The translations under genes and the position numbers were made by a program. Under the pieces are notes generated by a model. The model was not told where the DNA came from. It did no database searches and saw nothing but the letters and a program-made list of their open reading frames with translations. A DNA stretch of 37,542 bases from Gaiellales bacterium (GTDB lineage Bacteria; Actinomycetota; Thermoleophilia; Gaiellales; JAICJC01), in contig DASWRM010000002.1 of the NCBI GenBank assembly GCA_036403155.1, positions 1 to 37,542 on the forward strand. The letters run 5' to 3'. This document shows, one piece after another, positions 2,161 to 6,260 of the stretch. Numbering within the stretch: position 1 is the first letter of the stretch; every line of letters starts with the position of its first letter.

Positions 2161-3549
2161 TCAGCTGTCGAAGCCCAGCCCGAGCCGGTCGAGCGCTCGC
2201 AGGTACCCGCTCCGGCGGCCGCCGTTCCGGTCGGCGCGCGCCAGCTCGCGGATCGTCATGCGGATGCCCGCGAACCGCAGCGGCTCGGGCGGGAAGGGCA
2301 GCGGCTTCGAGCGGACGAACCGCAGGCGCGTGGCCTCGGTGTCGCGCCCGTCCACCAGATCCAGCGCCACACGCGCGCCGAAGCGGCTGGCCGCAACGCC
2401 GAGCCCGGTGTAGCCGACGGCGTAGGCGACGCGGCCGCCCATGGTGCGGTCGAACATGACGCAGAACCTGCTGCAGGTGTCGATCACCCCGCCCCAGCGG
2501 TGCGTGAATCGGACGCCCTCGAGCTGCGGGAACGTCTCGAAGAACTGGCGGCTGAGCAGGTCGAAGGTCGCCGGCCGCTGCTCGAGCTCGGGGGCAACCG
2601 CATTGCCGTAGTGGTAGATCGCGTCGAAGCCGCCCCAGAGGATGCGGTCGTCGTCGGTGAGGCGGTAGTAGTGGAACTGGTTCGCCGCGTCCGCGAGCCC
2701 CCGGCGCGTGCGCCAGCCGACCGACCGCATCCGCGCCTCGCCGAGCGGCTCGGTGACGAGCACGTAGTCGTAGATCGGCGCCACGTAGCGGCGGACCGCC
2801 GGCACGAGCGGAGGAAACCCGTTGGTCGCTAGCACCACGCGCTCGGCCCGCAGTCGACCCTCCGGCGCGGAGAGCTGCACGCCGTCGGCAAGCTCGTGCA
2901 TCGCCCGCACCGGCGTGCGCTCGTACACACGGACGCCGAGGTCGATGCATGCGCGCCTGAGCCCCCATGCCAGCCGGGCCGGGTCGACCAGCGCCGCCTC
3001 CGTCCGCTGGAGCAGCCCGCCGAGGTACGTCGGCGAGTCGACCTCGGCCCGCACCGCGCCGGCGTCGAGCCAGTCGGCGTCCAGCCCGTGCTCACGCATG
3101 ACGGAGACGAAGTCGCGGAGCGCGCCCACCTGGTGCTCGGCCGTCGCGACGGTGAGGTAGCCGGGGCGCTCCCAGGAGCAGTCGATGCCGTGCCGCGCGA
3201 TGGCGTCCTCGATGCCCGCGAGGTTCTCCCGCCCGAGGCGCTCCAGCACCCGGATCTCGTCGGGGAAGCGGTCGATTCCGTTCGCCAGCCCGTGTGTCAG
3301 CGACGCGTCAGCAAACCCGCCGTTCCTACCGGTCGCGCCCTCGGCGACGAGGTCCGCCTCGAGCAGCACGACGTCTCTGTCGGGGACCTGCTCCTTTGCC
3401 TGCAGCGCCGCCCACAGGCCGGTGAACCCGCCTCCGACGACGGCAAGCTCGCATTCGGCCGGGCCGTGCAACGCATCGGCCGGCTCGGGCGCGAGCGGCG
3501 AGTCGAGCCAGAACGGCCTCGGCTCGGCATCGCTCCAGGCGTCGCTCAC
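2161..3549 (-). CDS. FAD-dependent oxidoreductase (DAO family, PuuB/OrdL-like)
   Basis: This 462-residue flavoprotein belongs to the DAO fold. The N-terminal dinucleotide motif is ELAVVGGGFTGLWAALQA (glycines 39-44), followed by the flavin-contacting GATGRNGGFAD typical of gamma-glutamylputrescine oxidase-like (OrdL/PuuB) enzymes. The C-terminal FAD segment contains VAYAVGYTGLGVAASRFGA. These enzymes oxidise a primary or secondary amine, giving an aldehyde, ammonia and hydrogen peroxide; the substrate is not evident. I chose GTG 3549 because it overlaps the cupin stop as GTGA (3546-3549), the usual sign of translational coupling; an ATG at 3603 would overlap the cupin by 58 nt. Peroxide from this enzyme could link it to the MsrA and peroxiredoxin genes just upstream (inference). 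Confidence 0.88.
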   Translation of the reverse strand: MSDAWSDAEPRPFWLDSPLAPEPADALHGPAECELAVVGGGFTGLWAALQAKEQVPDRDVVLLEADLVAEGATGRNGGFADASLTHGLANGIDRFPDEIRVLERLGRENLAGIEDAIARHGIDCSWERPGYLTVATAEHQVGALRDFVSVMREHGLDADWLDAGAVRAEVDSPTYLGGLLQRTEAALVDPARLAWGLRRACIDLGVRVYERTPVRAMHELADGVQLSAPEGRLRAERVVLATNGFPPLVPAVRRYVAPIYDYVLVTEPLGEARMRSVGWRTRRGLADAANQFHYYRLTDDDRILWGGFDAIYHYGNAVAPELEQRPATFDLLSRQFFETFPQLEGVRFTHRWGGVIDTCSRFCVMFDRTMGGRVAYAVGYTGLGVAASRFGARVALDLVDGRDTEATRLRFVRSKPLPFPPEPLRFAGIRMTIRELARADRNGGRRSGYLRALDRLGLGFDS

Positions 3550-3905
3550 CCGGCCGGCAGGATGATCTGGTATGCCTTGCGCAGCGTCTCGTGGACGGTC
3601 CACGTCGTGCGCGCGCCCTCCTCGAGGACGCCCATGTCCCCCGGGCCGATATCGAAGGGCTCGCCGCCCTCGGGTGCGATGGTGGCGCGACCTGCGATGA
3701 CGACGAACATCTCATGCGCCTCCGTGTCGGTCGCGGTGCCGGGCGTCATCTGCCAGACGCCGCGCAGCACCGTCCCGTCCTCGCTCTGCCAGACCACGCG
3801 GTTGAACGCCTCGGGCTCGCCTTCCAGCACCGTCGTGGGATCGAGCGGATCCGGCTCGAGGTCGAGATCGGCGATGTGCACGGCGAATGTTCCGCGGCTG
3901 CGCAT
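3546..3905 (-). CDS. Cupin-domain protein (DUF861-like)
   Basis: This 119-residue single-cupin protein has the small beta-barrel pattern: RGVWQMTPGTATDTEAHEMFVVIAG for motif 1, then GGEPFDIGPGDMGVLEEGARTTWTVHE for motif 2. The Trp-rich ends and E-x-F-V-V-I-x-G fit the Cupin_3/DUF861 (EutQ-related) group. Only one metal-type His (AHEM) is obvious, so metal binding is uncertain. Its stop overlaps the start of the downstream amine oxidase by 4 nt, so the two proteins are almost certainly made together; DUF861 cupins often accompany PuuB-type oxidases in amine catabolism. It begins with ATG, 8 nt after a TAGCAT box, so its mRNA is probably leaderless. Confidence 0.85.
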   Translation of the reverse strand: MRSRGTFAVHIADLDLEPDPLDPTTVLEGEPEAFNRVVWQSEDGTVLRGVWQMTPGTATDTEAHEMFVVIAGRATIAPEGGEPFDIGPGDMGVLEEGARTTWTVHETLRKAYQIILPAG

Positions 3906-3971: not shown

Positions 3972-4517
3972 TCAGCGACCGAGCAGGCTCGACAGCAGCC
4001 CGGACTTCTGCTCGACCGGCTCCGTCCGCGGCTCGACCGGCGAGGGCGCCTGCATACGGCAGGCGGCCTGGCCGTGCTTCTCGAAGTACCGCTGGTGGTA
4101 GTCCTCGGCCCGCCAGAACGTGCCGGCGTCGGTGATCTGGGTGACGATCGGCCGTCCCAGGTGCGTCTGCATCGCGGCCAGCGACTGCTCCGCGACGCGG
4201 CGCTGCTCGGGGGAGTGGACGAAGATCTCCGAGCGGTACTGGCTGCCGACGTCCGGCCCCTGGCGGTCCTTCTGCGTCGGGTCGTGCTCGTTCCAGAACA
4301 CCGCGAGCAGCTGCTCGTAGGAGACCCGGTCCGGGTCGTACTCGACCTCGACGGCCTCGGCATGCCCCGTGCGGCCGCTGCAGACGGCGCGGTAATCCGG
4401 GCTCTCGACGGTTCCGCCCGTGTAGCCGACGGCCGTCGCCTCGACGCCGTCGATCTGCATGAACGCATACTCGACGCCCCAGAAGCAGCCTGCTGCGAAG
4501 GTGGCCTTCTCGGTCAT
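3972..4517 (-). CDS. msrA: Peptide-methionine (S)-S-oxide reductase
   Basis: MsrA reduces methionine-S-sulfoxide in damaged proteins and free methionine. The 181-residue protein opens with [14 protein letters not shown], holding catalytic Cys11 (codon TGC, so not selenocysteine). The family blocks [41 protein letters not shown] and [18 protein letters not shown] follow. Cys153 near the end (HGQAACRMQ) is the likely resolving cysteine for thioredoxin recycling; Cys46 is also present. A 25-residue tail after it is charged and ends in [10 protein letters not shown], which is not part of the family core. A GAGGAG sequence lies 11 nt upstream of the ATG. The gene follows the selenocysteine peroxiredoxin by 94 nt on the same strand, making an oxidative-damage pair. 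Confidence 0.96.
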
Positions 4518-4611
4518 ATGGCGATCAGCTCCTCAGAGAGTGGTGTCGGAAGCTTAAACGCGCCGCGCCCGTCCGCCGTTCCCGCAGTCAGGCGCGTCTC
4601 CAATCCGGCAC

Positions 4612-5076
4612 TCATCCCGCGTGGCCGCCGACCGCCTCCGCCTGCTCGACCAGCTCGGCGATGTCCGGCACCTCCCCGTCCGCGTAGCGCCGGGCGAAGC
4701 GGATCGTGCCGCCCGCGTCGGCGGTGAAGGCGGAGCGCACCGGCGTGTCCTCGAGGCCGTCGAGCGTCTGGCCCACGCCGAACGCGCGCACCGCCTCGGC
4801 GTTCCAGTCCGAGAGCAGCGGAAACGTGAGCCCGAGGCGCCGCGCCCACTCGAGGTGGGAGTACGGGCTGTCGCGCGACACCCCGACGATCGCCACTCCA
4901 AGCTCCCGGAACCGCGCGCTCCTGTCACGCAGGAGCCGGAGCTCCGTGCGTCAGGTGCCGGTCCAGTCGTAGAGGTAGAAGACGACCAGCACGGCGCCCA
5001 GGGTGGCGAGCGAGACGGGCTCGGCATCGACGCCGAAGAGGGTCAGGTCGGGCAGGCGGTCTCCCGGAGCGAGCAC
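4612..5076 (-). CDS. Selenocysteine-containing peroxiredoxin (in-frame TGA)
   Basis: Read from GTG 5076 through the TGA at 4953-4951, this is one uninterrupted 154-residue AhpC/TSA-type peroxiredoxin. The N-terminal half is VLAPGDRLPDLTLFGVDAEP...LVVFYLYDWTGT, then TGA (residue 42), then RTELRLLRDRSARFRELGVA and IVGVSRDSPYSHLEWARRLG. Residue 42 is where the family's peroxidatic Cys sits (T-x-x-C): here Thr39-Gly-Thr-Sec. The protein has no cysteine at all, so without Sec it would have no peroxidatic residue. Both sides keep the same frame and family alignment. The function would be reduction of hydrogen peroxide or organic peroxides, 1-Cys-type, with an external thiol. GTG 5076 has a TACCCT box 6 nt upstream. 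Ordinary annotation would call only a 3' fragment from 4896. A Cys-to-stop mutation is the alternative; the hairpin after the TGA argues against it. Confidence 0.82.
4918..4936 (-). promoter_or_regulatory. Candidate bacterial SECIS hairpin
   Basis: On the minus strand, GCTCCTG (4936-4930) pairs perfectly with CAGGAGC (4924-4918) around the 5-nt loop CGTGA. The loop opens 21 nt after the in-frame TGA at 4953-4951 and has a G at its second position. The known bacterial SECIS consensus asks for a short stem, a G in the first two loop bases and a loop roughly 16-37 nt from the UGA; all are met. SelB would bind this element while the ribosome is at the UGA. Confidence 0.68.
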
Positions 5077-5124: not shown

Positions 5125-5400
5125 ATGTGCAGAAACATCCGACCACTCCACAACTACGAGCCGCCGACCACCGAGCATGAGGTGCACGAGGCAGCCCTGC
5201 AGTACGTCCGCAAGGTGAGCGGCATGACGAAGCCGTCGCGCGCCAACGAGGACGCGTTCGCGCGTGCCGTCGAGGCGGTCGCCACCGCGACCTCCGACCT
5301 GCTCGGCGAGCTCGTCACCGTCGCACCGCCGCGTGACCGCGCCGCCGAGATCGAGCGCGCACGCGAGCGAGCCGCCAAGCGGTTCGCCCACTCGGCCTAG
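5125..5400 (+). CDS. DUF2277 family protein
   Basis: This 91-residue protein starts MCRNIRPLHNYEPPTTEHEV, the hallmark of DUF2277, a small family of unknown function found in many bacteria. The invariant N-terminal Cys-Arg-Asn, the YVRKVSGMTKPSRANEDAF block and the C-terminal PPRDRAAEIERARERAAKRF are all present, at family length. I start at ATG 5125 because the family begins at MCRNI; an in-frame ATG nine bases earlier would add MRR. It is transcribed divergently from the selenocysteine peroxiredoxin with 48 nt between start codons. Its stop shares the tetranucleotide CTAG (5397-5400) with the convergent oxidoreductase. The conserved cysteine next to a redox gene is suggestive only. Confidence 0.92.
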   Translation: MCRNIRPLHNYEPPTTEHEVHEAALQYVRKVSGMTKPSRANEDAFARAVEAVATATSDLLGELVTVAPPRDRAAEIERARERAAKRFAHSA

Positions 5401-6260
5401 AGCAGCTCCCCCAACCGCTCGACCGAGCGCTGGGTGATCGGATCGGCGACGATGATCGCCTCGTCGGCGCCTGCGGCTGCGAGCCCCTCGATGTGCTCCT
5501 GGAGCCGCTCCGGCGGAATCGCGGGCACGCCGGGCACCGGAGCACGCTCGCCGGCCGCGTCGAGCGCCACCAGCACGCACGCGCTGCGCTGAACGGCGGC
5601 GGGGTCCCGTCCGGCGAGCCGGGCGGCCTCGCTGATGCTCGCGTTCAGCGCCGTGAAGCCCTCGACGCTGTTGCCGTAATCGTCGTACCACGTGTTCCAG
5701 GCGTCCGCGTGTGGGAGCGCGATGCCGAGCATCCGGGGGCCGTTCGACCCGATCATGATCGGCACCCGCCGCCCGGGGGACGGCAGCAGCACGACGTCGT
5801 CGGCGTCGTGGAACCGGCCGCGTGCGTCGACGCGCTCGCCGGCCAGCATGCCGCGGATGATAGAGAACGCCTCCTCGAACCGCGACACGCGCCGGTCGTA
5901 CGGCAGGCCGAACGCGGCGAACTCGGCGCGATTCCACCCGGCGCCGAGCCCGAGCACGAAGCGCCCGCCGCTGACCTCGTCGATCGTGGCGGCCATCTTG
6001 GCGATCAACCCCGGCGGGTGGAACGCCGTGCACGCGACGAGCGGGCCGAGCGTGACCCGCTCGGTGGCCGACGCCAGGGCAGCGAGCATCGTCCACGCCT
6101 CCCACGGGCCCCGTTCCGGCCGGTCGTCAGCGCGGTACAGCAGGTGATCGCCGAGCCAGACCGAGTCGAAGCCGGCGTCCTCGGCCGTGCGCGCGATGGC
6201 GACATATTCGGGCCAGCGAACGTCTCGCTCGACCTCCGGCAGCTGGATCCCGACGCGCAC
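5397..6260 (-). CDS. LLM-class F420-dependent oxidoreductase
   Basis: This 287-residue luciferase-like (TIM-barrel) flavin/F420 oxidoreductase has the usual landmarks: MRVGIQLPEVERDVRW at the first strand, EDAGFDSVWLGDHLLYR, TERVTLGPLVACTAFHPPGLIAKMAATIDEVSGGRFVLGLGAGWNRAEFAAFG, and the NGPRMLGIALPHADAWNTWYDDYG segment. These features match the F420-dependent subgroup common in actinobacteria, which reduces or oxidises small organic substrates with F420H2; the substrate is unknown. It starts with GTG, 6 nt after TAGAGT, and is probably leaderless. The 3' end overlaps the DUF2277 gene by the shared CTAG. No operon partner is evident. Confidence 0.9.
   Translation of the reverse strand: MRVGIQLPEVERDVRWPEYVAIARTAEDAGFDSVWLGDHLLYRADDRPERGPWEAWTMLAALASATERVTLGPLVACTAFHPPGLIAKMAATIDEVSGGRFVLGLGAGWNRAEFAAFGLPYDRRVSRFEEAFSIIRGMLAGERVDARGRFHDADDVVLLPSPGRRVPIMIGSNGPRMLGIALPHADAWNTWYDDYGNSVEGFTALNASISEAARLAGRDPAAVQRSACVLVALDAAGERAPVPGVPAIPPERLQEHIEGLAAAGADEAIIVADPITQRSVERLGELL

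Follow-up and report, generated by a model that had tools for sequence, protein, structure and literature searches.

A peroxiredoxin gene in the stretch of Gaiellales DNA analysed here (37,542 nucleotides; hereafter the window) very probably encodes a functional selenoprotein. Specifically, comparative sequence analysis points to a 1-Sec peroxiredoxin of AhpE-like fold, with selenocysteine (Sec) inserted at residue 42 by hairpin-directed SelB, a reading to which we assign a probability of about 0.96. A first-pass annotation had proposed a Sec peroxiredoxin in an actinobacterium, and the proposal is supported by the Sec machinery of the genome, by intact relatives and by a bSECIS-like hairpin. 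The result is a well-supported selenoprotein shared within an actinobacterial lineage whose members are mostly uncultured, in a gene that ordinary annotation would truncate.

The reading frame and its predicted product

The gene lies on the minus strand and has three landmarks:

5076-4612, minus strand: Sec peroxiredoxin gene (GTG start at 5076-5074, internal Sec-UGA, terminal TGA at 4614-4612), 154 aa
4953-4951, minus strand: Sec-UGA, codon 42, at the peroxidatic Cys position (T39-x-x-U42), placed by translation, AhpE alignment and clade comparison
4896-4894, minus strand: GTG, the first in-frame start codon past the TGA, from which a naive gene caller would produce a 94-aa fragment

The frame had been described as open through TGA 4953-4951 from GTG 5076, and it is: translation yields 154 residues with a single internal TGA and neither a frameshift nor a further in-frame stop until the terminal TGA. 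The protein reads VLAPGDRLPDLTLFGVDAEPVSLATLGAVLVVFYLYDWTGTU from its N-terminus to Sec and continues RTELRLLRDRS.... The Pfam domain AhpC-TSA (PF00578; E=2.4e-27) covers residues 4-127, and the match is unbroken across the TGA.

The first-pass annotation had also placed the TGA at the peroxidatic Cys position of a protein without Cys. Both points hold. The translation contains the motif T39-G40-T41-U42 and 0 Cys residues, and U42 lies opposite the peroxidatic Cys of Mycobacterium tuberculosis AhpE, the best PDB sequence match (60.5 bits). Comparison with Cys homologues, suggested as a check, gave the same alignment, with Cys at this position in seven loci of the clade to which the gene belongs. 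An AlphaFold2 model built with the family alignment as input reached a pLDDT of 92 and a pTM of 0.89, and Bcp4 of Sulfolobus (TM 0.91) and M. tuberculosis AhpE (TM 0.89, ~35% identity) are among the best structures matched to it by Foldseek.

Since GTG 4896 is the first start past the TGA, the remark that an automatic annotator would call a truncated protein from there (94 aa) is right in principle. Separately, a 157-aa open reading frame overlaps the gene in another frame (minus strand, 4554-5027), and an automatic annotator could call it instead of the peroxiredoxin.

A conserved hairpin downstream of the UGA

Downstream of the UGA lies a candidate selenocysteine insertion element, which the first-pass annotation had not mentioned:

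4936-4918, minus strand: bSECIS-like hairpin GCUCCUG-CGUGA-CAGGAGC, starting 14 nt past the UGA
4929-4925, minus strand: apical loop of the hairpin, with G at loop position 2 (4928)

Published criteria for bSECIS elements are a loop of 3-9 nt with G in its first two positions, a stem of 4-16 bp, a UGA-to-loop distance of 16-37 nt and a minimum free energy of at most -7.5 kcal/mol (PMC13188914). The window hairpin falls within all four, with a 5-nt loop (CGUGA), a 7 bp stem, 21 nt from UGA to loop and -10.8 kcal/mol for its 19 nt. Within a 53-nt context its pairs have a probability of 0.99; if the leading 11 nt are cut off to mimic ribosome coverage, the window copy favours an alternative fold.

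Constraint on synonymous codons maintains the hairpin in the clade's Sec genes, and the hairpin is lost in the clade's Cys members. Nearly all of the 66 Sec loci write codons 6-10 past the UGA (Leu-Leu-Arg-Asp-Arg) as CTC CTG CGT GAC AGG, whereas clade Cys members mostly use different codons there (e.g. CTG CTG CGC GAC CGC). Most Sec loci contain the exact 15-mer CTCCTGCGTGACAGG once, and none of the Cys loci contains it. Stem cells are paired at 94.6% in Sec members, a value reached in 0/500 shuffles, compared with 49.0% in clade Cys members. The basal G-C pair is exchanged for C-G in five loci; RNAalifold covariation of the hairpin is otherwise weak because the stem sequence is almost invariant.

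Folding was also compared with each gene's own synonymous recodings over the 48 nt from the UGA. The mean z was -1.26 for TGA members (s.e.m. 0.11; n=70, including four TGA peroxiredoxins of other families), compared with +0.22 for Cys members (n=31, including distant Cys homologues). In stretches immediately upstream, or 42 nt downstream, there was little or no excess fold stability. The clade also suits the question of how SECIS constraint shapes synonymous codons. A different hairpin, the fold of minus 4956-4900 that pairs the UGA region itself, was initially considered and then dropped, as the comparative data led to the conserved hairpin at 4936-4918.

Selenocysteine machinery in the window genome and its relatives

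The first-pass annotation had named a search for the Sec machinery as a check, and its absence from the genome as grounds for rejecting the reading. All the components sought, that is tRNA-Sec(UCA), selA, selB and selD, are in the genome, which is 98% complete in 79 contigs. The tRNA-Sec scores above the Rfam cut-off (63.8 bits), ARAGORN assigns it the anticodon UCA, and selB and selD are accompanied by two copies of selA.

Further proteins are probably also made by Sec decoding, since two FdhA-type genes have a TGA in frame where Sec usually stands: L172 (G000:C36:9735-11597, context NVDSCNRT*HAPSVVGL) and L174 (G000:C49:17505-18248, context QVENQARI*HSSTVPSL). These formate-dehydrogenase-type genes are probably at least two further selenoproteins. 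As a side observation, selA-selB occurs at two loci, each at the end of a contig (G000:C61:1-1882, L017/L163; G000:C74:94034-96564, L018/L164). Their SelA proteins are only 62% identical over the overlap, although their base composition is alike; they reflect either the presence of two Sec systems or a bin that also contains a second organism.

In a set of 101 genomes (the window's own and its relatives), TGA-bearing clade peroxiredoxins are found in same-genus and same-family genomes and in most of family f3. selA was found in 44/57 genomes with the TGA gene and 19/44 without it (Fisher p = 0.0008). For tRNA-Sec alone, scanned with strict filters, the corresponding figures were 37/57 and 22/44, a difference that is not significant (p = 0.16). 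Other selenoproteins may keep the Sec trait in genomes without the TGA peroxiredoxin gene. Altogether, 48/57 TGA-gene genomes carry selA and/or tRNA-Sec, and 9/57 carry neither. These nine are metagenome-assembled genomes (MAGs) with completeness of 71-91%, and two same-genus relatives of one of them, G039, carry both genes; incompleteness likely accounts for the absences. Another genome, G043, has selB and tRNA-Sec without a selA match, as incompleteness would lead one to expect of MAGs.

These data bear on whether TGA, instead of being decoded as Sec, is reassigned or generally suppressed (e.g. with insertion of Trp or Cys). Conservation does imply in-frame read-through of the TGA. We nevertheless consider it very improbable: the same gene terminates at a TGA, the TGA that is read through is always aligned with the catalytic Cys, the genome has a complete Sec machinery, and a SECIS-like element stands at the right spacing.

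Conservation of the TGA and of the active site

Once duplicates are removed, codon 42 is TGA in 66 clade loci and TGC/TGT in seven; none of these 66 TGA and seven Cys loci has TAA, TAG or another sense codon there. Purifying selection acts on both sides of the TGA, with dN/dS between the window gene and its same-genus copy at ~0.34 before it and 0.22 after it.

A decaying pseudogene, or a sequencing or assembly error, could have turned a Cys codon into TGA by a single point change from TGC or TGT. This is exceedingly unlikely, however, given that the identical TGA recurs in 66 distinct loci of many separate assemblies, that the window gene has no frameshift or extra stop, that selection is purifying to either side and that the downstream hairpin is conserved. 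Frameshifts or scattered stops in close relatives, which the first-pass annotation had said would count against its reading, were not seen: the relatives are intact and share the TGA. Equally remote is a true stop at the TGA with a functional C-terminal fragment starting from GTG 4896, for although that start is present, the N-terminal 41 residues are conserved as protein (dN/dS <1), the fragment would, by the model, lack both the catalytic residue and the initial strands of the fold, and Cys relatives are full-length with no stop.

Residues around the Sec were counted in 67 Sec and 7 Cys clade members, a set obtained with a slightly looser filter than the 66 + 7 above. Thr or Ser stands at -3 from Sec in 67/67 Sec members, and Arg114 is present in every sequence covering the position. 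The residue at -7, which is Pro in the motif PxxxT/SxxC(U), is Leu in 65 of the 67 Sec members (the window protein among them), Ile in one and Pro in one. Cys is absent altogether from 55/67 Sec members and falls at scattered positions in the remaining ones, with no conserved second (resolving) Cys across the 67. Pro at -7 also occurs in two Cys forms, L117 and L127, which share one subclade with the Pro-bearing Sec form L125; it may have been retained or regained there.

An alignment-based scan of genome contigs returned 72 loci; most come from records with Thermoleophilia or Actinobacteria/Actinomycetota in the title, and two are Gaiellaceae. Peroxiredoxin matches in phage and plasmid records were all distant (<60% identity). 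Two records are titled Burkholderiales and Acidobacteriota (L069 and L107), with genes nested inside the actinobacterial clade; they are probably mislabelled or mixed bins. In addition, peroxiredoxins of four other families of the same phylum (L151, L155, L157 and L158) have a TGA in the same column, are without the clade hairpin sequence and carry Val at the Pro position. These are possibly related Sec lineages.

Proposed mechanism

For the Sec peroxiredoxin, the hairpin 14 nt past the UGA would recruit SelB with GTP and Sec-tRNA(Sec), and Sec would be inserted at residue 42 in place of termination; the same gene ends at an ordinary TGA. By analogy with the peroxiredoxin family, the Sec selenolate, set among the conserved Thr/Ser39 and Arg114, would reduce peroxide and become a selenenic acid. 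An external protein thiol or a low-molecular-weight thiol may then reduce the selenenic acid. It is from the lack of a conserved second Cys that we infer a 1-Sec mechanism with an external reductant.

Evolution of the Sec and Cys forms

When 93 proteins were placed in a maximum-likelihood tree, all clade members formed one group of 71 rows (64 Sec, 7 Cys; support 100/99). The Cys rows are spread over four positions (L086; L103 with L074 and L081; L048; L117 with L127), and the Sec/Cys label needs five changes over the whole tree, compared with 22 in shuffles. This distribution suggests about four Sec-to-Cys replacements within an otherwise all-Sec clade. The ancestral state of the clade was likely Sec, a conclusion that falls short of proof because the root is a midpoint root and several outgroup branches are long. 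One of the Cys rows, the paralogue L086:2825-3250 in the same-genus genome (G001:C105), has a TAA in the N-terminal part of its aligned frame, which indicates either a later start or a pseudogene.

The clade might even be a distinct subfamily that was born as a selenoprotein at its base, has a near-invariant SECIS, works without the Pro and underwent about four later conversions to Cys. We hold this broader reading only tentatively and think it somewhat doubtful; if true, it would provide natural Sec/Cys pairs in which to test the benefit of Sec to a peroxidase. More generally, a clade in which Sec stands beside several apparently independent Cys versions, and in which those Cys versions have visibly lost the SECIS, is a natural system for asking why peroxidases keep selenium.

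Relationship to known peroxiredoxins

Sec peroxiredoxins (TxxU, PF00578) have been a known bacterial selenoprotein family since early selenoproteome surveys (PMC1088965, PMC1794560, PMC5029168, PMC13188914), and their PxxxTxxU motif is highly conserved (PMC13188914). The clade is a variant of this known type, with Leu for Pro, no conserved second Cys and tested members below the NCBIfam cut-offs. It shares with the family, including PrxU (NF040737), the AhpC/TSA fold, the T/S-x-x-U motif, a bSECIS past the UGA and Cys homologues aligned to Sec. Unlike the family, it has Leu for the active-site Pro of PxxxTxxU in 65/67 Sec members; it is also concentrated in one actinobacterial order and has no conserved second Cys. 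The window protein scores 36.3 bits against the PrxU equivalog NF040737, where the cut-off is 270.

The closest characterised relative is probably M. tuberculosis AhpE (Rv2238c), a 1-Cys peroxiredoxin. Both have a single catalytic residue and an Arg at the equivalent of R116. AhpE differs in having Cys for Sec and in keeping the Pro of PxxxTxxC, and its reductant may differ. The rankings vary by method, with Bcp4 at the top of the Foldseek matches, AhpE leading the PDB sequence matches and the NCBIfam subfamily profiles all below cut-off. That is, no NCBIfam cut-off was passed by either of the members tested, the window protein and L030. PrxQ/BCP belongs to the same superfamily, and the NCBIfam PrxQ/BCP models score the window protein far below their cut-offs; the window genome also carries a Cys PrxQ-like paralogue (L052, ~32% identity). 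In the main text of open-access papers, our searches turned up no description of a selenoprotein from this clade; an earlier mention may exist, for example in the supplement of PMC5029168.

Genomic neighbourhood

Three genes flank the Sec peroxiredoxin on the same strand:

5397-6260, minus strand: luciferase-like monooxygenase gene, the upstream neighbour, outside the finding
3972-4517, minus strand: msrA (peptide methionine sulfoxide reductase A, Cys form), the downstream neighbour, 94 nt from the peroxiredoxin gene
2161-3603, minus strand: FAD-dependent oxidoreductase (DAO) gene, further downstream

The order luciferase-like gene, peroxiredoxin, msrA, DAO is common only to the same-genus genome. 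A family-wide peroxiredoxin-msrA operon is therefore not claimed, as the link to msrA is conserved in that genome only. Within its own genus, the adjoining msrA fits a role in oxidative damage.
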